A stretch of 32,116 nucleotides of DNA from a virus, in IMG/VR virus record IMGVR_UViG_3300028895_000097, positions 1 through 32,116 of that record, one strand, 5' to 3'. A model generated the notes under the pieces. It saw only the letters and a program-made list of their open reading frames with translations, was not told the DNA's origin and ran no database searches. The first letter of the stretch is position 1, and each line of letters opens with the position of its first letter. Below, piece after piece: positions 3,819-30,491 of the stretch. Position numbers and translations under genes: made by a program.

Positions 3819-6199
3819 TGAATAACCAGAAGAAAGAAACCTTAACCGCAAAACAAAAGGCTGCTACACTTCAGATAGCTCAGAACAATATGCTTGGTGG
3901 AATGTCGGCCCTGTTTGCAAAAGGGTTAGGGCTGTCTTCTGCGGAACCTATTGAGCAGTTGGGGGTGGGATTCTCTCCTATCCGTCAGGCATGGATCATA
4001 CCGGAGTATGATGCAGACGGTAAGGTAGTCGGCTTGAGCCAACGATGTGATGGATTAGCAGCGAAGTATCGTGAGTTTAATTATCACAAACGGCAGTACA
4101 GAGGTACTGGTCGTGGCTTGACCTACGTTCCAAACCCAGACTTCTCTGAAGATACACAGCAACGATATGCTGGTGCCAAGCATCGCCATATTCGGGTATC
4201 GCACCATCGACCCTGCCCCATATGCGGCAAGCCAGACTGGTGCGTGATTGTTGAGAATGATGAAGGCGAAGAAATCTCTGTGATCTGCGGTCGTACTGAG
4301 ACTGCATCCATCAAGGAGATTGAAGGTGCAGGATACTTACACTTGTTGAAACCAGAGGGGGATTTTTCCTTCTCTGGTTCAGCGGTGAATCGATTTGATA
4401 GCGACATCGTATTTCTGCCAGAAGGATTTGCTGATTGGTCTGTGTTTCATTCATTAGGTATGAATGCTATCGCTCGACCGAGTAGTAAAATTCTCATGGC
4501 CAAAGAGACTACGGCATTGATTGAACGGATGAGTGTGAAGACTATTATTATCGTTGGAGATAATGATGAGGCTGGCATAAGCAGCGTATTCAAACTCCGT
4601 TCTGCTCTTGGTAGTTACCAGAATCTCAAGCACCATAAAATTCTAGCGGTATTTCCCCCGGAAGAATTTAGGGATGCACGAGAATGGTACAATAAGCAAG
4701 GGTTCGATGTCACTGAGTTCATGCTACACGTTGAGGCTAACGCACAAGAGACTCCCCCGGATGGGACTATCGAAGGATGTAGTGCGGGCGAGTTAGCTGA
4801 TCGGTTCGTCGCCCTGAACAAACAAGACGGACACCCGCTGTACCGCTACTACAAGAATAACTGGTATCAGTATGACGGTAGTAAGTACGCCTTGATTGGT
4901 GCGGATCGACAAATGGATAGCGTTGAAGCTATGCGTCATCAGGTATATGAGATGTCCGGCACTATCCGATGTATCGGCGAAGGATATAATGGGCCGGTGC
5001 GTAACAAAATGAGTATCGGCTTAGCAAATAATGTTCTGGATATGGCGGCAGGAGATTTGGCTATCACTCGTACACCTCCGTACTGGATGACGGACCAGCC
5101 CCGCCCGAACCCACGGCATGTGTGGTCGTTTCGGAACGGTATCCTTGACATCGACGCATACCTACAAAATGGCGAGATCACACTGCTTGATTCGACACCG
5201 GAGTTATTCTCCCTGCATTCGTTTGATTTCGATTTTGATATCGATGCACCTTGCCCCCTGGCTGATGATAAAGTGTGGGCGATACTGAATGAAGACGAGG
5301 ATTGCTGGAATCTATGGTGGGAGTGGGTGGCGTATAATACGCTGACTGACAATCACATGGAGAAGTTTATGTTAATGGTTGGTAAATCAGGGTACGGCAA
5401 GGGTACGCTGTTAGATGTGATGACTGCTATCATTGGTTACGAACAAATGGTATCAACTACATTCAAGTCTATGTGTGGTGAGTTCGGGCTATCCCCGCTA
5501 GTCGATAAACTATCGATTCAGTTGCGAGATGCCTCATTAGGAGATCGAAGCAAGGATGCGGTCACTGCTATGGAGACTATCAAGTGTATTACCGGGAATG
5601 ATCCTATTGTGATTAACCGTAAAAATAAGATACACATACCAAATGAGAAGATCAATGGCAAGTTTACATTCACAGTGAACACACTGCCAAAGCTTCCTGA
5701 TTACGCACGAGCATTAGAACGAAGGTTGCTCCTGTTGCACTTTGTACGAGATTTCACTGAGGTTCGTGATCCGTTGTTGAAAACGAAACTTATTTCCGAA
5801 GTGCCGGGGATGATGAAGTATGTCCTAGAGGGACTGAAACGCATACACCATAAGGATAAGTTCACTGAACCCGAAGCATCGACGTATATGCGTACACAGT
5901 TCAAGAATATTACATCACCAATGGAATCATTCCTTGAAGAAACCTGCATACATGGTGGGCCGGTCAAGAAAGTAGAAGATCAGCAACTATTCCAAGCATG
6001 GTTATTGTGGTGCGACGAAGAAAACAGGACGTATCGTGGGAATCGTGATGAGTTCCGGGCTAACTTATTATCACTGTCGTCAAAGATTTACAAGAATATC
6101 GACAGTACAGTGAAGACAGTGGCGGGACTCACCGGACGATACTATACGAGGATTGAACTAAATGATAGATGGAAAGATAAACTGCGAGGACAAGATTAA
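3818..6199 (+). CDS. Zinc-finger/Toprim primase fused to SF3 (D5/P4-type) helicase
   Basis: A 793-residue replication protein. Residues 129-160 hold a probable zinc site (C133, C136, C142, C157). Residues 195-275 are a Toprim domain: E202 in FLPEGFAD and D248/D250 in VGDNDEAG are the expected metal-binding residues. A linker region leads to a C-terminal SF3 helicase with Walker A VGKSGYGKGT at 521-530, a conserved asparagine strand (FTVNTLPKLP, 618-627) and arginine-finger candidates R636/R637 (LERRLLLLHF). It should prime and unwind phage DNA as a hexamer. The start overlaps the previous stop by one base (TAATG) without a strong own SD, so translation is likely coupled. Domains are clear; whether priming is active cannot be judged from sequence. 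Confidence 0.88.
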   Translation: MNNQKKETLTAKQKAATLQIAQNNMLGGMSALFAKGLGLSSAEPIEQLGVGFSPIRQAWIIPEYDADGKVVGLSQRCDGLAAKYREFNYHKRQYRGTGRGLTYVPNPDFSEDTQQRYAGAKHRHIRVSHHRPCPICGKPDWCVIVENDEGEEISVICGRTETASIKEIEGAGYLHLLKPEGDFSFSGSAVNRFDSDIVFLPEGFADWSVFHSLGMNAIARPSSKILMAKETTALIERMSVKTIIIVGDNDEAGISSVFKLRSALGSYQNLKHHKILAVFPPEEFRDAREWYNKQGFDVTEFMLHVEANAQETPPDGTIEGCSAGELADRFVALNKQDGHPLYRYYKNNWYQYDGSKYALIGADRQMDSVEAMRHQVYEMSGTIRCIGEGYNGPVRNKMSIGLANNVLDMAAGDLAITRTPPYWMTDQPRPNPRHVWSFRNGILDIDAYLQNGEITLLDSTPELFSLHSFDFDFDIDAPCPLADDKVWAILNEDEDCWNLWWEWVAYNTLTDNHMEKFMLMVGKSGYGKGTLLDVMTAIIGYEQMVSTTFKSMCGEFGLSPLVDKLSIQLRDASLGDRSKDAVTAMETIKCITGNDPIVINRKNKIHIPNEKINGKFTFTVNTLPKLPDYARALERRLLLLHFVRDFTEVRDPLLKTKLISEVPGMMKYVLEGLKRIHHKDKFTEPEASTYMRTQFKNITSPMESFLEETCIHGGPVKKVEDQQLFQAWLLWCDEENRTYRGNRDEFRANLLSLSSKIYKNIDSTVKTVAGLTGRYYTRIELNDRWKDKLRGQD

Positions 6200-6732
6200 T
6201 GGACAGACGAGGCGATCCCGGTCTATGGGATAAATACGGATGGTATTACCTGACATGGTTAGCCTTCCTTATCTTCGCCCTTCTTATAAGTGCAAGCGGT
6301 TGTAGCAATCTGGGGGGTATCTTCTCCCCAGATGTTACGCCCGAACTGACACCTGAACAACGTATTACCGAAGCCGTCAAGAATACCAACTGGCTTGTTA
6401 CTCTATCCATACTGGGGATGGCTATATCAGTTGCAGCTATTATGAACGGCAGTAAGATGGGGATCGGGGCCTTGCTTGGCTCCCTGACCTCCCTTACCCT
6501 ATCACTTATGGTGATTAAATACGCTGGCCTGATCGCTATCATTGGATTGGTAGCGAGTGTTGGTGTGTTTGGGTACGCGGTGTATGTGAAACGTAAGGCG
6601 TTGATAGAAGTGGTGGAGAATGTAGAAGGAATTAAAAGAAAAGATTTAGTCCCCGGTATTGAGGCTTGTTTACATGCACAAAGTCCTACTACACAAAAGA
6701 TTATTAAAAATATTAAGGAGAAATTAAAATGA
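6199..6732 (+). CDS. Membrane protein with about four helices and lipobox-like N-terminus
   Basis: A 177-residue protein that starts by TAATG overlap with the primase-helicase stop. Residues 17-33 are hydrophobic and end in SASGC with C35, resembling a lipoprotein signal, although the -3 position is Ala rather than Leu. Further hydrophobic segments lie near 65-82, 88-106 and 109-130. The C-terminal 45 residues are charged and probably cytoplasmic. I recognise no family. Membrane anchoring of replication, superinfection exclusion or a holin-like role are all possible, but its place in the early operon argues against a simple late lysis function. Confidence 0.7.
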   Translation: MDRRGDPGLWDKYGWYYLTWLAFLIFALLISASGCSNLGGIFSPDVTPELTPEQRITEAVKNTNWLVTLSILGMAISVAAIMNGSKMGIGALLGSLTSLTLSLMVIKYAGLIAIIGLVASVGVFGYAVYVKRKALIEVVENVEGIKRKDLVPGIEACLHAQSPTTQKIIKNIKEKLK

Positions 6733-21707: not shown

Positions 21708-22793
21708 TTACTTATGTAAGACGAAGCCGACCTTCCGACGAGAAGTACACAGGTTATTGTGTGAACCATCGAGGAAGACGGTGAACACAGTATGCTGGCT
21801 CTTGTCGTACATAGGTTCGGATTCTTCCATCCAGTAGCCATCCTGCACAACCGGAATGAAGCGTTTGAAGTCGATGCAGTAGAACGGATCGCTTGTATCA
21901 CTGTTCAACTGCGGAATACCCAGAACCGGGAGACTGTTAATCATAACGGTCATGCCGATACGGGCCAGAACGCCGCCCATCATATCCTTCGGAGCGGTAT
22001 TATCATCACGATCATCCAGCAACTCTTGCAGTGCGACCAGAGTATCAAAGTTGCAGTAGCAACCTTTCTTGGCGGCACGAAGTTTGGCGGGATCAGTGAT
22101 GAAGTACGGGGCTTGGAAGTTGGTTTCGATGAAAGCCCGACGAGCTTTGGCGAGGAAGTCATTCGCAACCGTGGTGTACTGGGCAGCGTAGTTATTCCAT
22201 TTCGCCTGAGTCGAGGCATCGATACCAGCACAAGTCGTACCAGTCGAAGCATCCTGATACACAATCGTCTGGCCAGCAAAACCGCTAGTCGTGCCAGCAG
22301 CGATCTGAGCGGCAGTCAACTGGTTCAGGTAATAGGGAACGCCATACGGATACAGATCATCCGAGGCGTTCTGAGGGGTTTTCCACCCACGGTCTTCAAT
22401 CAGTTCAGCCAGCGACCACAGGCCGTCGATCCGACGAGATTTCAGCAAGTTGACGAAGCCTTTGGAACTGTTAGCGTTCCGTTTGATTTCCAGTTTGTCC
22501 CAAGAGTAGTCGGTACTCAACTGGGTCCACGGAACAGTAATCTGCACCTGCGTATCGCCAACGGCAGGGGTGTCCGTATCATAAAGCCGACGATACCGAG
22601 CATTCCCGGTGTGATCGAGCATTACGTTACGCACGATACTGGTTCCACCATCTACACGCAGCGAATCTTTATTGTAGATACGGCAGAATTCGTAATCTTG
22701 AGAATCCCATTCCACTTCAAATTCCTGCTTGGGCAGGTCTTCCAGAGTGGTTGCCAGCAGATCGGCGAGGTCAGCATTTTTAACACCAGCCAT
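21708..22793 (-). CDS. Major capsid protein
   Basis: A 361-residue protein that follows an acidic scaffold gene and is followed by a terminator, the usual setting of a highly expressed capsid gene. The N-terminus (MAGVKNADLADLLATTLEDL) is helical. The rest shows mixed alpha/beta content compatible with an HK97-type fold, including a long extended segment around residues 90-130 and a well-ordered C-terminus ending VGFVLHK. There is no long N-terminal delta domain and no head-protease gene of the usual fold. Assembly probably relies on the separate scaffold without processing, as in P22 and T7. Identification rests on position, length and layout. Confidence 0.82.
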   Translation of the reverse strand: MAGVKNADLADLLATTLEDLPKQEFEVEWDSQDYEFCRIYNKDSLRVDGGTSIVRNVMLDHTGNARYRRLYDTDTPAVGDTQVQITVPWTQLSTDYSWDKLEIKRNANSSKGFVNLLKSRRIDGLWSLAELIEDRGWKTPQNASDDLYPYGVPYYLNQLTAAQIAAGTTSGFAGQTIVYQDASTGTTCAGIDASTQAKWNNYAAQYTTVANDFLAKARRAFIETNFQAPYFITDPAKLRAAKKGCYCNFDTLVALQELLDDRDDNTAPKDMMGGVLARIGMTVMINSLPVLGIPQLNSDTSDPFYCIDFKRFIPVVQDGYWMEESEPMYDKSQHTVFTVFLDGSHNNLCTSRRKVGFVLHK

Positions 22794-22812: not shown

Positions 22813-23937
22813 TTAGAATCCTTTAGCACGAAGCTTTTTCAGTCCTTTGTCAGCCGTGTCCAGAGCCTGTTCTTCCGCAGATTTCTTTTTCTTCTGCGGT
22901 CCCTTCTGGTTAGTCTTACCCTTCGCTCTGAAAGTACGGCTATCATTACGTTTCTTCAGTTTCTTTTGGGTTTTCTTTACTGCTTTATCTTCCATAACCG
23001 GAGCAGTAATTGCCATGTGTGCAAACTCAAGGGCTTCCAACACAGACATATCTTCACCTTGAACCATCGCACCAGTACGAATCTTATCAGCCAAGTTAAA
23101 CAATTCACGACGATGCATGGTTTGGATCGGGGTGAGATTCTCATCGGTTCTACCGTAGAATTCGCCGTCCATTGTTATGTCTTCGTCGCTCATAAATTGG
23201 TCGATAGATTTAAGTACCTGTGCTTTTGATTCTTCAGGTATTTCTACTTGCTGTTGTCGCACTTCCTGTGCGGGTACAGCCGATGATGCTTTGTCAGCCA
23301 TTTTCTTCATGGCCTTATACGTTGCACTATCTTCACCGTGTTCTTCCTTAACAGCTTTCAGTTCTTCCTCGAACTCATTAGTCGGGTGAGCCGGGGCGTT
23401 CTGCTGTTCTATTTGTTGGTTCAGAGTATTCTGACCTAACTGAGCGAACTTAGCAGATAGTTTATTCGTACTCTCGTGCATCTTTTTGAAGGTCTTCATT
23501 GCACCTTCAGCGTCAGCGTTCAACGCCCGTTCAATGTCGTCGTCAGTCCAACCTTGATGGATAGCAGCACGACGAAGTGCGTGATCCAGTTTGGGGGTTT
23601 CAGGCTTTTTCTTTTTCTTCTTAGGTTGAGGTTCCCCATCTTCGTCTTCTTCCTCGTCTTCATCCTCACCCCCGTCCTCATCTTCTTCTAGCTCATCGTC
23701 ATCGTCTTCGATGTCTTCATCCTCGTCTTCGAGGTCTTCATCCTCAATTTCCTCGTCTTCGACTTCTTCGTTGCCGTCCTCATCGTCCGGGGTAACTTTG
23801 TCATCGACGGGGAAACCAAGTTTCGCTAGTCGTTCTTGGACATTAGAAATCGCTGCTTCCTCTCCCACACCTTCATCACTAACACGTTCGATCTTACCAG
23901 CTTCATCAATCAGTTTCTTCTGAACATCATCACTCAT
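22813..23937 (-). CDS. Scaffolding protein
   Basis: ATG 23937 (starting MSDDVQKKLIDEAGK) is chosen for its AAGGAG; an in-frame ATG 8 codons earlier has no comparable site. The 374-residue product has an extremely acidic tract at about 50-101 (Asp/Glu runs), a lysine cluster (106-111), helical regions in the middle, and a very basic C-terminus. Scaffolding proteins are typically helical and charged, with a basic C-terminal segment that contacts the coat protein. The gene lies directly upstream of the capsid gene, as in most podoviruses. The acidic part is encoded by low-complexity GAT/GAA repeats at about 23640-23790. Confidence 0.82.
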   Translation of the reverse strand: MSDDVQKKLIDEAGKIERVSDEGVGEEAAISNVQERLAKLGFPVDDKVTPDDEDGNEEVEDEEIEDEDLEDEDEDIEDDDDELEEDEDGGEDEDEEEDEDGEPQPKKKKKKPETPKLDHALRRAAIHQGWTDDDIERALNADAEGAMKTFKKMHESTNKLSAKFAQLGQNTLNQQIEQQNAPAHPTNEFEEELKAVKEEHGEDSATYKAMKKMADKASSAVPAQEVRQQQVEIPEESKAQVLKSIDQFMSDEDITMDGEFYGRTDENLTPIQTMHRRELFNLADKIRTGAMVQGEDMSVLEALEFAHMAITAPVMEDKAVKKTQKKLKKRNDSRTFRAKGKTNQKGPQKKKKSAEEQALDTADKGLKKLRAKGF

Positions 23938-23970
23938 TGCATTCTCCTTTTTGATTGCCATCTCTCGTTC

Positions 23971-24017: not shown

Positions 24018-24371
24018 TCAACTTCTTATACGATACTTTCTTTGGCGTTGTGGTTTCTTATACATACCACGCTTGTTATAGTAATCATCCTCTTGCTTCG
24101 TATTGTCAAACAACAAAGCTCCATCTCCACGCACCCTTATATCGGGATGATCCCTTTGATGGTCCTTGATCTGACTTGGGGTGATACCAAGAGATTCACA
24201 TACCTTCGGTACAGCGTAGTCTATACTCCCTGCATTGGGGCGTTCCTCCCTATAATCCCGATTCATAACGGCACCACAATCACAGCATTCTTCGGAATCA
24301 GATAAAGCCATAGGCTTTGTGATATCGAAGTTGTCGTCACATTCGGGGCATCTATAGGCGTATATAGGCAT
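24018..24371 (-). CDS. FmdB-type zinc-ribbon protein
   Basis: A 117-residue protein. The first 33 residues match the FmdB-like ribbon: MPIYAYRC opening, then C8-x2-C11 and C29-x2-C32, which would bind one zinc. The remainder is charged, with a basic end (KKPQRQRKYRIRS). Proteins of this type appear in many phage head-gene clusters, where their function is unknown; they may act in capsid assembly or bind nucleic acid. Its start overlaps the portal stop by one base (TAATG), so translation is coupled to the portal gene. Confidence 0.8.
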   Translation of the reverse strand: MPIYAYRCPECDDNFDITKPMALSDSEECCDCGAVMNRDYREERPNAGSIDYAVPKVCESLGITPSQIKDHQRDHPDIRVRGDGALLFDNTKQEDDYYNKRGMYKKPQRQRKYRIRS

Positions 24372-26134
24372 TACATCATTCCTCCGAGTCTTGCGGATTG
24401 CGAGTCGTTCGCCCCGGCTTGAGCTTGCATGTTGCTAAACTCTCCCGGCGAAGGGGTCGTACCACCAACAATTCCCGGTTGTCCATTTTGTAAAATCTCG
24501 TCCACACCACCGGCCCCGCCCACAACCTTATTAGAGTTGCCGGGACTCATCATGCCCATCTGGTGTACGAGCATCATTCGATTTAAGAACTCAGGGTCAT
24601 TGAATACTTCATCGAACCAATCAGCGATATCCAAGTCCTCGGCAAGTTTGGTAATCGCCACTTGCAGATTAAATGGTTGCCCCATTTGCTGGGCCATTAA
24701 CGCAGTCTGCATTGTAGCCGGGAGCAACTGTGTCATAAAGTCCATAATACGTTTCGTCTTAATCGCTGGATCAAGACGCTGCATAGAACGAGCTTTAATC
24801 TTAAATGTCAGGAATAAGAAATCTTCTCTATCAACATCCGTGAATTCAACAGGGTTCGTCCAGATGTAGTAAGCATGTTTCTTACTCACGCTGGATGCAC
24901 AATCATAAAGGATAGATCGTGCGTCCTCGATACTCATGCTCTGGTTGGCTTGCAGCATCTCAGCCTGTGTAGCCGTGGGTGCTTGCGAACTCGCACCACC
25001 TACCAGATCAGCGTTGCCTGTGACATAATTAAACCATGTATGTAAGTGGGACAACATGACTTCGTTTGTCTGTTGCTGTCCACCGAAGGATACATTATTA
25101 AAGGCTGAAGGATCAGTAGTAGCTACAGCATCGCCATCTTCTGCTTCACGAATATCATCCGCTTCATCAGCATGGGCGGGCTTGTACAGCAAAATGTCTT
25201 TCTGCCGTTCAGCCTGATCCATCGTTTTCTTGAACATATCATTTGCAATAGTGTGTAAATCGTACCACATGGATACGGGAGCAATCGGTAATGGGTCGTT
25301 TACAGGTGGCGAGAATGATAAATAATCATACGGTCCTGCATCTACCCCATCGTACTCTGCCGCCCCCACAAAATCTGGAAAAATGGTTTCTCGTGGGTCA
25401 GGGCAGTACACGATCTGCTCATAAGACGGAATCCACAACTCTAACAGCGTCACCATATCTCGTGCGGCGTTAAAGTCCATTGCGTAGGAATCCCGATTTT
25501 CGTGTGGGTCTTTGTCTTTGGGGTCCGGCCTTCCTATTGCTTCAGGTAACTGCATAACCAAGTCGTCATCGAATCGATCATCGTCCAGCAATAATTGTCG
25601 CGGCATCGTCACTAGATCACCAGTGAAGAATGCATCACGAAACAGATGTTTTTCGGCAGATGGGTCAAATGTAAAGTTATCCAGATCGACCACATCACTG
25701 TATTGTTCGCCGGGATCAATGACGGAATCGCCATACTCCATTACATAGCCACTCTCTGCTAAACCTGTCTTCATAATACCGAAACCGAAGAATGCATCGA
25801 CGAGCCACGCACGATAGATTTCTTTCAATCGCATAGCTTCCTGAGATTCATCCAGTTTCGTCTTAAGCAGTTGAGCATGTAGCTCGTAATCGCTGTACGC
25901 AGTCGTCACGATATTACGGGGGTTCTGCATAACCAGTGCGGGGATGTAGGCCGAGATAGCCCTGAAGATCATGTTGATCGGTTCCTCGCCGGTTAAACCC
26001 TCGAACTCCTGCCAATACTGTCCAACATATGCTTTGAGATACATGGCCCTCGCGTTTCTGTAGTTACGCATCCGCTCAAAACCCATACGTGCAGCTTCCT
26101 GAATGTCGCTTGCTTTTAGTTTTGTTCGAGCCAT
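24371..26134 (-). CDS. Portal protein
   Basis: A 587-residue protein directly after large terminase, the normal place of the portal. The N-terminal helix (FERMRNYRNARAMYLKAYVG, 19-38) is typical of podovirus portals. A long central part is followed by a helical region and a glycine/methionine/glutamine-rich disordered tail (residues 540-587, ending LGGMM). It should form the dodecameric ring at one capsid vertex, dock the terminase during packaging, and later bind the adaptor. The start has GAGG upstream. Coupling with the terminase gene is tight, with one base between the two genes. Confidence 0.85.
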   Translation of the reverse strand: MARTKLKASDIQEAARMGFERMRNYRNARAMYLKAYVGQYWQEFEGLTGEEPINMIFRAISAYIPALVMQNPRNIVTTAYSDYELHAQLLKTKLDESQEAMRLKEIYRAWLVDAFFGFGIMKTGLAESGYVMEYGDSVIDPGEQYSDVVDLDNFTFDPSAEKHLFRDAFFTGDLVTMPRQLLLDDDRFDDDLVMQLPEAIGRPDPKDKDPHENRDSYAMDFNAARDMVTLLELWIPSYEQIVYCPDPRETIFPDFVGAAEYDGVDAGPYDYLSFSPPVNDPLPIAPVSMWYDLHTIANDMFKKTMDQAERQKDILLYKPAHADEADDIREAEDGDAVATTDPSAFNNVSFGGQQQTNEVMLSHLHTWFNYVTGNADLVGGASSQAPTATQAEMLQANQSMSIEDARSILYDCASSVSKKHAYYIWTNPVEFTDVDREDFLFLTFKIKARSMQRLDPAIKTKRIMDFMTQLLPATMQTALMAQQMGQPFNLQVAITKLAEDLDIADWFDEVFNDPEFLNRMMLVHQMGMMSPGNSNKVVGGAGGVDEILQNGQPGIVGGTTPSPGEFSNMQAQAGANDSQSARLGGMM

Positions 26135-26135
26135 A

Positions 26136-28088
26136 TTAAACCTCTATAAAGTTAAATTGTTGTCGCCAAGACTTCTGCCGTTTCTTACGTGCGTCAGTCC
26201 TGCGTTTTCTTAACGCCTGTTGCCGCCGATACGCGGCAGATTTCTGCGGCACTTCGGGCAGCTTAGTTTCTTTCTCAAACTTAACGTCATCGAGAATCCA
26301 TAGACATAGGGCATCAGCTATTACCCTGTCACCGTGTGTCTTCTTCGCACTCTCGCTTTCTTGTTGTAGCCCTGCTGGGCCAATTGCCATCTTCCCTGAT
26401 GATTTCTCATAATAGATGTAGGCCATCGCTTCATCGATTGCGATCTCACAATGATTAACAAACCCACCATGAGCTAAGTTTCGGCGATACACACTAAGCA
26501 GTGCTTCTTTCTTCGCACCGCCACTATTATGCCAGCCGTACTTATTAGTATTACGCTCCGTCACGGTTCCATCGGTCTTATCTATATAGAAACATGGATA
26601 CTTAAAATCCTTTACCATAATCTTACCGAAGTCCCAACCGGGGCCATTCATTTCCCAGATCAGAAACGGCAACTTATTCTTCCCCGTGCCACCTATCCAA
26701 AGGGCAAGGGCAACTACCATACGGGCAAACTCATAAGGGGGCACAGTCGCTATTGCTAACTCTGCTACCTTCTCTCGTGTCTCCACGCAGGATACACTCG
26801 CTACTGAATTCGACGCACTCTGCCCTTTGGACAGGTCGATCCCAATAACATACGATTTGGTTTGGTCCAATCGTCCCTTAATAAGATTGCCCCACACTTT
26901 CAAGTGACCCTGTTTCTTTCGGCGTTTCTTTACGCAAGTCAGATTGTTCGTCCGTATCAATCGAGCGACCTGTGTATTGGGTACATTGCCATCCATGTCA
27001 ATATCCCAAGCAGACAGCGGTTCTTTCCCGAACAATGCCTTATGTTGCATCAATACGGGGGCTTCAAAGAACAGATCGCCCGAACCAAGATGGTCCATAT
27101 CAACTTCCTGTGCCAGTTCTTTAGGGCTTCGCCGGGCATCCTCAAGATCATACCACGGCGACCGAATCGACCATTTCTTCGTCACAGAATCCTGCACGTA
27201 TTTACGCCCCCGACCTTTATCGGGATGCTCCCACCATGCCAGTTTGAATACTTTGATCTGCCCGGACTGCATCCACTTACTGTACTCCGTACCCGCTTGC
27301 GGTGTCGAGTTCACAATACGGCAAGGCGTTACATCAGATGTAGCACTACGCATGGCCTCGCCATTTTCAACCGCAGCAAACTCATCCAATAATATCGCAG
27401 TACGTCTATCACCACGAGCAGCATGTTTCGTTGTCGATTCACCATCAATCGTACTACCTGTCAGGCAGTTATGCATGTGCATCGATGTTCGATACTTCTG
27501 TCGTGATCCAACTTGCGGTGGACACATCCAATCGGGCAGGTTCTGGTTTAAGTAATCTAATTTCCAGAACAACGCTTTATGGTTTCCAGCCTTATCCACA
27601 TAGTCTTCAGTACGGGATAACAGTAATAACTGTTGGTCCTCGAAGAACAGCCATCGATGGTGGAAACTCGTAAGAACGATCCACGATGCACCCATATCAC
27701 GAGACTTATCTATCCCTAGATCACGCCCGAACTCCATTGCATCATAGATTTCCGTAATAGCCCTGTCTTGAACCTCCCAAGTAATAAACGGCACATGGTT
27801 GATTCTGGCTGCTATCTCCCGCCCATCATCCAGCACTTCATTCTGCCGGTAGGTCCAGCAGAATGCGTTAAAGTAATACAGGGGCGACTCCTTGCACGCC
27901 CACATTAATTCTCGTTGCAATCCTTCGTCTTCCGATGCTTGCGTTATGATCTTCTTACGATAATCAAGATTAGCAAGGGGGGTCTTCGGCACTACAAGCC
28001 CCGTCTTTGTACACTTCCATGTGTCCGGGACGTTCGGGAAATCTACTGGTAATGATGGTTTTACGACAAAATTATTCGCTCCGGCCAT
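26136..28088 (-). CDS. terL: Large terminase subunit (DNA packaging ATPase-nuclease)
   Basis: A 650-residue packaging motor. The ATPase part shows a variant Walker A KSRDMGAS (128-135), a Walker B AILLDE (231-236, with D235 and E236), and a motif III-like SR-T element after the central strand. The RNase H-like nuclease part shows GIDLS with D418, an acidic IWEMNGPGWD with E479, and HGDRVIADAL with D587/D592. Together these are the expected metal-binding acidic residues. The C-terminus is very basic. The gene sits after the small subunit and before the portal. AAGGAG (28100-28095) precedes the ATG. The family is secure; the packaging strategy cannot be read from the sequence alone. Confidence 0.93.
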   Translation of the reverse strand: MAGANNFVVKPSLPVDFPNVPDTWKCTKTGLVVPKTPLANLDYRKKIITQASEDEGLQRELMWACKESPLYYFNAFCWTYRQNEVLDDGREIAARINHVPFITWEVQDRAITEIYDAMEFGRDLGIDKSRDMGASWIVLTSFHHRWLFFEDQQLLLLSRTEDYVDKAGNHKALFWKLDYLNQNLPDWMCPPQVGSRQKYRTSMHMHNCLTGSTIDGESTTKHAARGDRRTAILLDEFAAVENGEAMRSATSDVTPCRIVNSTPQAGTEYSKWMQSGQIKVFKLAWWEHPDKGRGRKYVQDSVTKKWSIRSPWYDLEDARRSPKELAQEVDMDHLGSGDLFFEAPVLMQHKALFGKEPLSAWDIDMDGNVPNTQVARLIRTNNLTCVKKRRKKQGHLKVWGNLIKGRLDQTKSYVIGIDLSKGQSASNSVASVSCVETREKVAELAIATVPPYEFARMVVALALWIGGTGKNKLPFLIWEMNGPGWDFGKIMVKDFKYPCFYIDKTDGTVTERNTNKYGWHNSGGAKKEALLSVYRRNLAHGGFVNHCEIAIDEAMAYIYYEKSSGKMAIGPAGLQQESESAKKTHGDRVIADALCLWILDDVKFEKETKLPEVPQKSAAYRRQQALRKRRTDARKKRQKSWRQQFNFIEV

Positions 28089-28091
28089 ACA

Positions 28092-28436
28092 TTACTCCTT
28101 ATTCTTACGTGCGGAATCCTTTGCCATAGCGTTGAGTGTCTTCGCTTTGGTATCGTCAATACGTTCACCGATACCAGCACTCGAACCTTTCTCCGCACTA
28201 TCTGAGCCAAGCTTACCATCGCAGCGATCAAGTACAAGTCTCATCGCCCACGGTTCAGGTTTCTTTGTAATCTTGTCGCCCGATACTGGATCAAACTCAA
28301 CTCCACCAATAGCCTTCTGCCAGATGGTTTCCGCTAACTTATAGTTACGTGTAACGGCCTCACCAAGTTCATTCTTCTCAGTAATCTCATTACCAAGTTG
28401 TTTTAAGAAAGCAGTCACGCTTGTTTTCTTACCCAT
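28092..28436 (-). CDS. terS: Probable small terminase subunit
   Basis: A 114-residue protein directly upstream of large terminase (3 bases between). It is helical and charged, starting MGKKTSVTAFLKQLGNEITE. It carries an AETIWQKAIGG and WAMRLVLDRCDGK segment similar to the conserved 'ldR-x-dGK' element seen in phage small terminase and DUF5681-like proteins. It should recognise packaging sites and regulate the motor. The C-terminus is basic. Confidence comes mostly from position and that element. Confidence 0.65.
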   Translation of the reverse strand: MGKKTSVTAFLKQLGNEITEKNELGEAVTRNYKLAETIWQKAIGGVEFDPVSGDKITKKPEPWAMRLVLDRCDGKLGSDSAEKGSSAGIGERIDDTKAKTLNAMAKDSARKNKE

Positions 28437-28438
28437 AA

Positions 28439-29131
28439 TTACCTCGTCATTTGGTAGATAAAGGAATTAAGCTCGTCAATGAGATAGCTATCGAACATGG
28501 TAGCAAAACTAATATCAGTATTGCCATAACCAGAAACCAAAATACCAATAACAGTATCTTCAAGAAATAGCGGGCCGCCGCTATTCCCACCATTAGCGTC
28601 CACATCAAGCTCATACTCAAACTCCCCTTCATCGACTGTTGCCGCGATATCCCCAAAAGACCAATGCCACTCATTTACACCAAGCGGCATCCCGATAATA
28701 TAAACGTCAGTTCCGGGAACCACGGTATCAGTAGCATTGCTAATGGTAACAGTTTCAAACGTGTCTTCCGTGTCCAGTTTAATAAACGCATAATCTCGAT
28801 CCTCACCTATACTATACTGGATAGGGGAGGCGTAGCCCGCATGAAACTCGTACTCTCGCCCGTCCTTAAATATAACTCTACCCTCAACGGGAATCTCTAT
28901 GCCCCGGTACTCATCCCAGAACATATGCCCCGCTGTTACGATTACTCCAGACTCATGCACGACAAATCCCGTACCTGTACCAACGTCAGTGATGATCTTC
29001 ACCACCCCGTACTCCGGGCCGTAGGTCGCAGACGGGCCGCATTCCTCTAACGATATCCTTGCTCCCACTCCTAACAGACTCACGAAGAAAATCATTAGCA
29101 CGATCCATACTGTTAAGACTTTAGCATTCAT
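28439..29131 (-). CDS. Signal-anchored trypsin-like serine protease (S1/HtrA type)
   Basis: A 230-residue protein. Residues 5-23 are a strongly hydrophobic signal or anchor segment, so the protease domain would face the periplasm or outside. The complete catalytic triad is visible: H69 in TAGH, D113 in DRDYAFIKL (111-119) and S184 in GGNSGGPL (181-188), spaced as in trypsin-like PF13365/HtrA peptidases. No PDZ domain follows, so it is a minimal protease. Two cysteine positions near the start could not form the usual trypsin disulphides. It overlaps no neighbour but sits 2 bases from both, inside the packaging operon. A morphogenesis, envelope-modifying or anti-host role is possible. This is the clearest unexpected gene in the window. 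Confidence 0.88.
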   Translation of the reverse strand: MNAKVLTVWIVLMIFFVSLLGVGARISLEECGPSATYGPEYGVVKIITDVGTGTGFVVHESGVIVTAGHMFWDEYRGIEIPVEGRVIFKDGREYEFHAGYASPIQYSIGEDRDYAFIKLDTEDTFETVTISNATDTVVPGTDVYIIGMPLGVNEWHWSFGDIAATVDEGEFEYELDVDANGGNSGGPLFLEDTVIGILVSGYGNTDISFATMFDSYLIDELNSFIYQMTR

Positions 29132-29133
29132 AA

Positions 29134-29646
29134 TTAACTCCCAGCGGCAAGAGGTTTCGCAAATATAGTTACCTTAGTTGAGTTGATTGTTTGGCCAGCC
29201 ACATAAAGCCAGCGATTTTCCAGCAGATCAAAGTAGGCAACCTGCATACGATCATTCGCATTGTCCGGTCCCACGTTAAGACCTGAAGGCCAACCATCTG
29301 TAGTGACGGTGATCGAGTCCACAAATAAATCCAAATCAGTCGAAGCTTCCAAAGTTTCGGGGTCCGTGTTCACTTCCATTAGCCCAGCCGTAGTTGTCAA
29401 TCGCCCAACATAGAGGCTCGGTCCCTCGTTCTCATTGGCCCCGGCATACAGATCGAGAACGTTTGAATCGCCGTCAGCCCCATCGACTGCAATACACAGC
29501 ATGAGTTCTTTCGCCCTGTGCCATTCTACCGGGATGTCAAACGCCCCAGCCGGTTTCGAGTCTAGTGTCGTGGCAGCGAGGGCGGTATCTGCCGCAGTAA
29601 TCGCTCGTACACGTTTCCACCCTGCATACAAACCTAATTCGCTCAT
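29134..29646 (-). CDS. Beta-rich virion-like protein (170 aa)
   Basis: The product starts MSELGLYAGWKRVRAITAAD and continues with alternating beta strands rich in Thr, Val, Asp and Ala, with one cysteine and no membrane segment. It resembles small phage capsid or tail accessory proteins rather than an enzyme. Its stop is 2 bases from the serine protease start. It may be a protein of the particle surface that is displayed with, or processed by, the protease; this is only suggested by adjacency. CAGGAG precedes the ATG. Confidence 0.55.
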   Translation of the reverse strand: MSELGLYAGWKRVRAITAADTALAATTLDSKPAGAFDIPVEWHRAKELMLCIAVDGADGDSNVLDLYAGANENEGPSLYVGRLTTTAGLMEVNTDPETLEASTDLDLFVDSITVTTDGWPSGLNVGPDNANDRMQVAYFDLLENRWLYVAGQTINSTKVTIFAKPLAAGS

Positions 29647-29648
29647 TA

Positions 29649-30491
29649 TTATTCTCCTGTGAATATTGTTACGTTACCATTTAATGTCGCATTCGACCAG
29701 CCCGATTTAGCAACGCCGGTTGTAATTTCTCGCGGTACAATTCCAGTGGTCGCGTTGTTGAGATACCAGCACACGCCGTCAATATTATTATCACAATCCA
29801 CAATAGCCTTACGCAGCATGTTTGGGTCAAAGTTATATTGATCTGCCGTACGTTTAATCCGGGTACATAATGCAGTCGTAAACGCGGTTATAGCGGCACT
29901 ACCCGTACCTATGGTTACGCCGGTTAAATCTAAAAGGGCAGTGAAACCAAATCCGCCCACACTTCGCCATGCTGTAGTAAAATCAAACGCTTCTGCACCA
30001 AGAGCAAGTATTGTTGAGTGGGCAGCATCCGGCGTATTATACGCATCGTCCTGTGCCGTCCCGTAATCAAGAGCCGAAGCCCCAAGACCAGTTCCAGATG
30101 CATCGTTCATAACCGTCACGCCGACATTCCGCTCGTCTAAGGCGTATGTAAGTTTCTCATAATACTGTTCCGTGCCAGTATTACGCCACTGCCAATCTGT
30201 CTTAGTTGCACTGTTATATACATAGAACCCAGTGTTATGTGCTGTCTCCGCACTTATATAGTGTCCAAAGTTCGTAGTCGTTGCATTCGGTAATGCGATA
30301 CTCACTATGCCCCACTGTGCGAGATTATTAATGTAGTTGGCTGAAGTCGTTAGCTCAATCGCCGTGCCCGATGAGCCATCCGTAGTCAGGTACCCATTCA
30401 GTTCTCGTTTGTTAAGATCGAATCGAGATACACGAGGTTTGAACCCAGTCGTAAATCGACTCTTTGTATAATCAAGTCGTGTTGATCTCAT
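29649..30491 (-). CDS. Beta-rich virion-like protein, possible lectin-type fold (280 aa)
   Basis: Residues 40-250 alternate beta strands and loops, with a Gly/Thr/Ala/Asn-rich composition similar to concanavalin/LamG-like or head-fibre proteins, but without a motif strong enough to name it. The basic N-terminal 25 residues (MRSTRLDYTKSRFTTGFKPR) may be an attachment segment. Its start is inside the 94-residue gene upstream (20-base overlap) and it has GAGAGG upstream of the ATG. Confidence 0.5.
   Translation of the reverse strand: MRSTRLDYTKSRFTTGFKPRVSRFDLNKRELNGYLTTDGSSGTAIELTTSANYINNLAQWGIVSIALPNATTTNFGHYISAETAHNTGFYVYNSATKTDWQWRNTGTEQYYEKLTYALDERNVGVTVMNDASGTGLGASALDYGTAQDDAYNTPDAAHSTILALGAEAFDFTTAWRSVGGFGFTALLDLTGVTIGTGSAAITAFTTALCTRIKRTADQYNFDPNMLRKAIVDCDNNIDGVCWYLNNATTGIVPREITTGVAKSGWSNATLNGNVTIFTGE

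Follow-up and report, generated by a model that had tools for sequence, protein, structure and literature searches.

The window analysed here, a 32,116-nucleotide stretch of viral DNA (positions 1 to 32,116 of IMG/VR record IMGVR_UViG_3300028895_000097), carries a gene for a trypsin-like protease directly before its terminase genes. The hydrophobic N-terminus of the product raises the question of what an apparently exported protease does in an operon of terminase and capsid genes. A preliminary description of the locus had proposed a secreted enzyme that is not an obvious head protease and that could act on host envelope or surface proteins, exclude other phages, or mature the two beta-rich proteins encoded just before it.

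The protease gene and its operon

The open reading frame at 28439–29131 (minus strand) is complete from ATG to stop, encodes 230 amino acids and is preceded by a GGGAG motif resembling a ribosome-binding site. In a Pfam scan, residues 53–196 matched Trypsin_2 (PF13365; E = 1.6e-20, 75 bits; model positions 1–143/144), with a second match to Trypsin (E = 1.3e-12) and no further family. The catalytic residues are predicted to be His69 (codon at 28925–28927, minus strand), Asp113 (28793–28795, minus) and Ser184 (28580–28582, minus), which sit in the motifs TAGH (residues 66–69), RDYAF (112–116) and GNSGG (182–186), exactly where the preliminary description had placed them. Because the 75-bit family match and the complete triad are joined by a confident fold, the reading frame is not a chance one: the window gene is a real member of the protease family with a complete His-Asp-Ser triad, and activity is predicted from its sequence. 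Asp178 lies six residues before Ser184, a position that is mostly Ala or Pro in relatives. By motif spacing, it would take the place of Asp189 of trypsin and would predict cleavage at Arg or Lys for the window enzyme.

The gene is separated by a gap of 2 nt from each of its same-strand neighbours, and the order given in the preliminary description (two beta-rich genes, protease, terminase genes) is right. All of these genes lie on the minus strand. On the upstream side are a 280-aa beta-rich protein (29649–30491), for which a search across the loci of the clade found no relatives, and a 170-aa beta-sandwich protein (29134–29646), which belongs to family c3 (HMM match 1.1e-37), often the upstream neighbour of the protease. 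On the downstream side, a 114-aa putative small terminase subunit (terS-like; 28092–28436) is followed by the 650-aa large subunit TerL (26136–28088; Pfam Terminase_6N, 5.2e-7; phrog_5989, 3.2e-12). Next come an inferred portal gene (24371–26134), conserved after TerL with homologues in 72 of 73 TerL relatives, a putative scaffold-like acidic protein (22813–23961) and the major capsid protein (21708–22793; phrog_9953, 7.5e-6). The labels "small terminase" and "classical scaffold" had been used without qualification. Position and conservation fit the former, of which most of the clade has a homologue before TerL, and composition and a place upstream of the major capsid gene fit the latter, but neither protein has a family match. 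Elsewhere in the window, a 177-aa protein (6199–6732, plus strand), predicted to cross the membrane several times, is encoded directly after the primase gene and is possibly a holin or another membrane protein; in relatives G018 and G015, membrane proteins likewise follow a primase-sized gene.

A probably exported protease resembling DegS without its PDZ domain

An AlphaFold model of the protease, built from an alignment of 28 homologues, has a mean pLDDT of 81 and a pTM of 0.76. It contains a single N-terminal helix (residues 3–30, with pLDDT above 90 for residues 1–20) followed by the beta strands of a trypsin-type domain, in agreement with the trypsin fold originally claimed. A Foldseek search with this model ranked HtrA1 first (4e-12) and found PDZ-deleted DegS (2r3u) at about 1e-10, while the closest PDB sequence was HTRA1 (3.9e-7); taking sequence and fold together, the best matches are HtrA1, HtrA2 and DegS. 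Consistent with the preliminary description, the Pfam scan found no PDZ domain in the window protease, and in the model the chain stops soon after the protease domain. The enzyme thus shares with the periplasmic DegS/HtrA (Deg) proteases the trypsin fold, the His-Asp-Ser triad, the GNSGG motif and an N-terminal membrane or export segment, whereas it has no PDZ domain, is about 25% identical to them, and is phage-encoded within a terminase operon. For want of the PDZ domain, it does not qualify as an HtrA protein, but it may still work like a PDZ-less DegS.

The hydrophobic segment, which had also been noted before, spans residues 3–25 (29057–29125, minus strand) and coincides with the helix of the model. 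A comparable segment is present in 76 of 77 full-length homologues linked to a terminase locus, as counted with a Kyte-Doolittle window rather than a trained signal-peptide predictor. Among the 76, a positive-inside charge pattern indicative of an N-in orientation occurs in 61 and a lipobox-like sequence in 7. The window protease has a signal-peptidase-like site, VGA followed by R, at which it may be cleaved. The term "secreted" therefore stands in part: the segment and the site point to export, but the sequence does not separate a secreted from a membrane-anchored form, and most relatives look anchored. In either form, we infer that the protease domain lies outside the cytoplasm.

An accessory gene under constraint in a clade of uncultured phages

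Used as a lone query, the window protease retrieved no relatives from IMG/VR or from isolated phages in direct searches, and tblastn gave no match to the isolated-phage homologues discussed below. A search of IMG/VR with the window TerL recovered 73 relatives at 42–54% identity, which constitute a clade of uncultured phages, and many of them encode a protein of the Trypsin_2 type just before TerL. We assembled a locus set from these relatives together with loci recruited by a protease alignment and loci recruited by a TerL alignment; genes were called mechanically as open reading frames, and many of the contigs are fragments. Among the 128 distinct TerL loci, the protease is found before terL in 74 and after the portal gene in 9, is absent despite enough flank in 19, and could not be decided in 26. 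In the unbiased subset, comprising the 65 TerL-recruited loci whose upstream flank is 2.5 kb or longer, 46 carry the protease, usually just before terS-terL, so that homologues with the same neighbours, as sought by the preliminary description, are common and about 30% of relatives do without the gene. There is exactly one Trypsin_2 protein per contig in all 16 positive records, and none anywhere in 14 records that have no protease near TerL, several of which are fragments shorter than 25 kb.

On the TerL tree, the presence of the protease changes about ten times. The six after-portal loci with a full-length TerL form one fully supported TerL clade. Co-evolution of protease and TerL is unsupported (Mantel rho 0.08), and in the tree of the proteases no branch is longer than that of the window protein. 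Because the protease does not track TerL, we make no claim of a single vertical acquisition; an equally likely history is exchange at one fixed position. The protease is thus an accessory enzyme that has been repeatedly lost or exchanged. A host assignment from MAG contigs was rejected, as searches of about 400 genomes of two phyla gave one match each, in both cases the query genome itself.

The homologues are about 25% identical to each other, and their catalytic residues are nevertheless intact. Among the linked homologues that reach the respective site, His is retained in 82/82, Asp in 85/85 and Ser in 89/89, and each of the three in 27/27 unlinked untruncated homologues. The seven homologues that lack one of the sites all begin at a contig edge, and no untruncated homologue lacks the catalytic Ser or His, a loss that would have spoken against the original proposal. 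Pairs at 72–77% identity have dN of about 0.15–0.22 and dS of about 0.8–1.4, giving dN/dS of about 0.15–0.25, whereas two nearly identical pairs have higher ratios that rest on very few changes. At the sequence level, the close pairs show purifying selection.

Several other genes recur around the protease in this clade. Family c2 (L196:695-1234, L055, L057, L132 and others) encodes an SPFH/Band_7 protein of about 179 aa (PF01145, 7.2e-17) near the protease and terminase genes in a minority of relatives, which is unexpected for a phage of 40–50 kb. In members of the after-portal clade (L079, L084, L087, L088 and L098), a Polysacc_synt_2/NDP-sugar epimerase-like gene comes after the protease, inserted between the portal and capsid genes (E = 8.7e-72 for the L087 copy). 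Family c5 (L192:336-686) comprises proteins of about 100 aa that have no Pfam match but contain the sequence HEMIH (HExxH, mini-zincin-like), and lies upstream of family c0 and the protease in many relatives. A short GroES-like protein (family c6; L040:6492-6770) is encoded near terS in several relatives, with a Cpn10 match (E = 0.0075) below the curated cut-off. Finally, family c14, a small one-helix membrane protein, precedes terS in five protease-less genomes (L024:331-579, L029, L031, L046 and L188). It occurs in 0/46 loci with the protease versus 4/19 without (p = 0.006), and the members placed on the tree all fall in one TerL clade. Family c14 is a possible replacement of the protease at the same slot.

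A probable role at the host envelope

Taken together, these properties are probably best explained by a late-expressed, exported, PDZ-less DegS/HtrA-like accessory protease that most likely cleaves proteins of the host envelope late in infection. The enzyme would probably be made late, from a compact operon that it shares with the terminase and capsid genes and with which it is presumably co-expressed. Its N-terminal segment would carry it across, or anchor it in, the cytoplasmic membrane, leaving a protease domain with the architecture of DegS minus PDZ outside the cytoplasm, where host envelope proteins would be the most likely substrates. Our leading specific guess is that the protease weakens or clears envelope proteins and so aids lysis or particle release.

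Aid to lysis or egress ranks first among the roles considered, but its support is weak. A hint comes from Sulfitobacter phage pCB2047-A, in which a homologue bearing a signal peptide (SUAG_00063) is encoded directly after a lysozyme/XhlA-like cassette; in lambda and T7, it is lysis genes that lie next to terS. On the other side, no endolysin, holin or spanin is recognisable beside the protease in the window clade, and no endolysin among 69 small and medium proteins of two near-complete relatives, a set that excludes the largest virion proteins. A match to phrog_2252, "endolysin; inhibits RNA polymerase", in two relatives was not taken as an endolysin, given that it overlaps matches to dATP/dGTP pyrophosphohydrolase (Pfam PF18909); the phrog_2252 label looks wrong for the members matched (L201:364-1092 and L203:6397-6987). 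The homologues of Rhizobium phages lie about 3 kb from a lysozyme gene or among early genes, and on other viral contigs homologues are found near genes for DNA polymerase, exonuclease or ribonucleotide reductase. Because of these early or replication-gene neighbourhoods, no lysis timing is implied in those phages and contigs. The stronger proposal that, in this clade, the exported protease beside terS is a dedicated lysis or egress factor that shares in opening the envelope, a proteolytic counterpart of spanins or endolysin, seems unlikely to us.

An envelope protease could also act on the cell surface rather than in release, trimming receptors or other surface proteins and thereby blocking later phages or the rebinding of released particles to debris. 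Such superinfection exclusion or surface remodelling is conceivable, though doubtful. The export segment and the accessory distribution, with its roughly ten changes on the TerL tree, would suit an interaction gene, as would the different slots that the protease occupies in the after-portal variants and in other phages, and the nucleotide-sugar/polysaccharide enzyme gene (family c15, PF02719) that follows it in some relatives. However, exclusion genes are usually early or lysogenic, while the protease gene sits in the capsid/terminase operon.

The likeness to DegS suggests another envelope role, in which the phage enzyme is a constitutively active, PDZ-less DegS that cuts an anti-sigma factor or a regulator of that sort, or that rids the envelope of misfolded proteins during infection. 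The layout of anchor plus protease and the Foldseek match to 2r3u fit this reading, and the membrane-type Band_7/SPFH gene neighbours the protease in a minority of loci. But the likeness is one of fold alone, with HtrA1 outranking DegS, and the Band_7 association is not significant (15/46 loci with the protease versus 3/19 without). Members of the family differ at the sixth residue before the catalytic Ser, which argues against one conserved host target. Envelope-stress signalling appears distinctly unlikely, and cleavage of envelope proteins late in infection remains our preferred reading.

Virion maturation and defence

Given its place in a morphogenesis module, the protease might instead serve the virion, either as a head-maturation enzyme or by processing the beta-rich proteins encoded upstream. 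Phage head-maturation proteases (T4 gp21, HK97 S78 and ClpP-like S14) are likewise serine proteases and often lie beside portal or capsid genes, and in one clade of relatives the protease gene directly follows the portal gene, a frequent place of head proteases. Those enzymes have different folds and are cytoplasmic. They are needed by their capsids, whereas the type of protease described here is dispensable and carries an export segment. Head genes for capsid, scaffold-like protein and portal are unchanged in relatives that lack the protease: the capsid, scaffold-like, portal and zinc-ribbon proteins are equally long whether or not it is present, and the capsid has the same N-terminus. Moreover, in Sinorhizobium phage phiM9 a separate trypsin-like protease is encoded alongside a prohead protease of the T4 gp21 type. 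The unchanged head genes, the gp21 of phiM9 and the conserved export segment speak strongly against a general head-maturation role, which we rejected, in line with the original view that this is no obvious head protease.

Processing of the upstream proteins had been a further suggestion. A beta-rich gene of family c0 (about 116 aa) or c3 (about 167 aa) lies immediately upstream of the protease in 38 of 58 non-edge loci, and c3 is found in 13 unbiased loci with the protease versus none without (Fisher p = 0.007). The model of the window c3 protein (29134–29646) is a beta-sandwich (pLDDT 84) with weak Foldseek matches to prophage YomS and to Agrobacterium phage capsid/neck proteins (E = 0.005–0.02), which make a virion role of this protein plausible. 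As a substrate it is unlikely, because it has no export signal, because locus L167 has c3 directly before terS and no protease, and because a tree-aware test of the c3–protease pair was not significant. On account of L167, a strict link between the protease and c3 was dropped. A hydrophobic N-terminus was found in only 4 of 100 c0/c3 proteins, families without export signals, and the 280-aa protein (29649–30491) has no export signal either. The membrane would hence separate both window proteins from the exported protease, and no locus contains a relative of the 280-aa protein. The suggestion is weakened by these results, and virion maturation in either sense is very improbable.

Trypsin-like proteases of defence systems (CARD-NLR, RT-protease and similar) are multidomain and, so far as is known, cytoplasmic. 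That the window enzyme is a phage-carried anti-phage or anti-defence protease of this kind is hardly credible, and membership in a defence system was rejected: PADLOC profiles with trypsin domains match it weakly (best 1e-9), but the match covers the shared trypsin domain alone (about 150 of 506 model positions), with neither the multidomain architecture nor partner genes, and the window protease has an export segment. In Caulobacter gene transfer agents, lysis depends on the catalytic Ser of the trypsin-like LypA, so that release can require proteolysis by such an enzyme. The precedent lends this idea some appeal, but LypA belongs to a CARD-NLR-like complex and differs in architecture from the window protease (PMC13236601).

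Counterparts in isolated phages and implications

Trypsin-like proteases are annotated in Rhizobium phages 16-3 (p036), RHph_TM3_3_14B, P10VF and AF3, in Sinorhizobium phage phiM9 and in Sulfitobacter phages pCB2047-A/C, and the protein P0001 matches phrog_9683 (PHROG 9683, "protease") at 1.8e-10. Matches in "Salmonella", "Staphylococcus", "Listeria" and "Acinetobacter" phages were set aside, as these phage records appear to contain bacterial DegP/DegQ/DegS sequence. The proteases of 16-3, RHph_TM3_3_14B, phiM9 and pCB2047-A/C have in common with the window enzyme a single trypsin-like domain in about 230–300 aa and, where the sequence was examined, an N-terminal export segment, whereas their genes are lysis-proximal or among early genes. 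Our literature search found no function assigned to such phage proteases. The window protease thus belongs to a type of phage enzyme that is known but functionally unstudied, within which it is divergent. The literature searched contained no description of its recurrent position beside the terminase genes in a large clade of uncultured phages.

Phages of very different kinds encode exported trypsin-like proteases, whose catalytic residues never degenerate in the terminase clade studied here. That the enzyme is accessory, carries an export segment and is not a head protease reduces the problem to finding the envelope protein that it cuts. Should such proteases turn out to aid lysis, phage release would have a new component, a lysis factor that acts by proteolysis.
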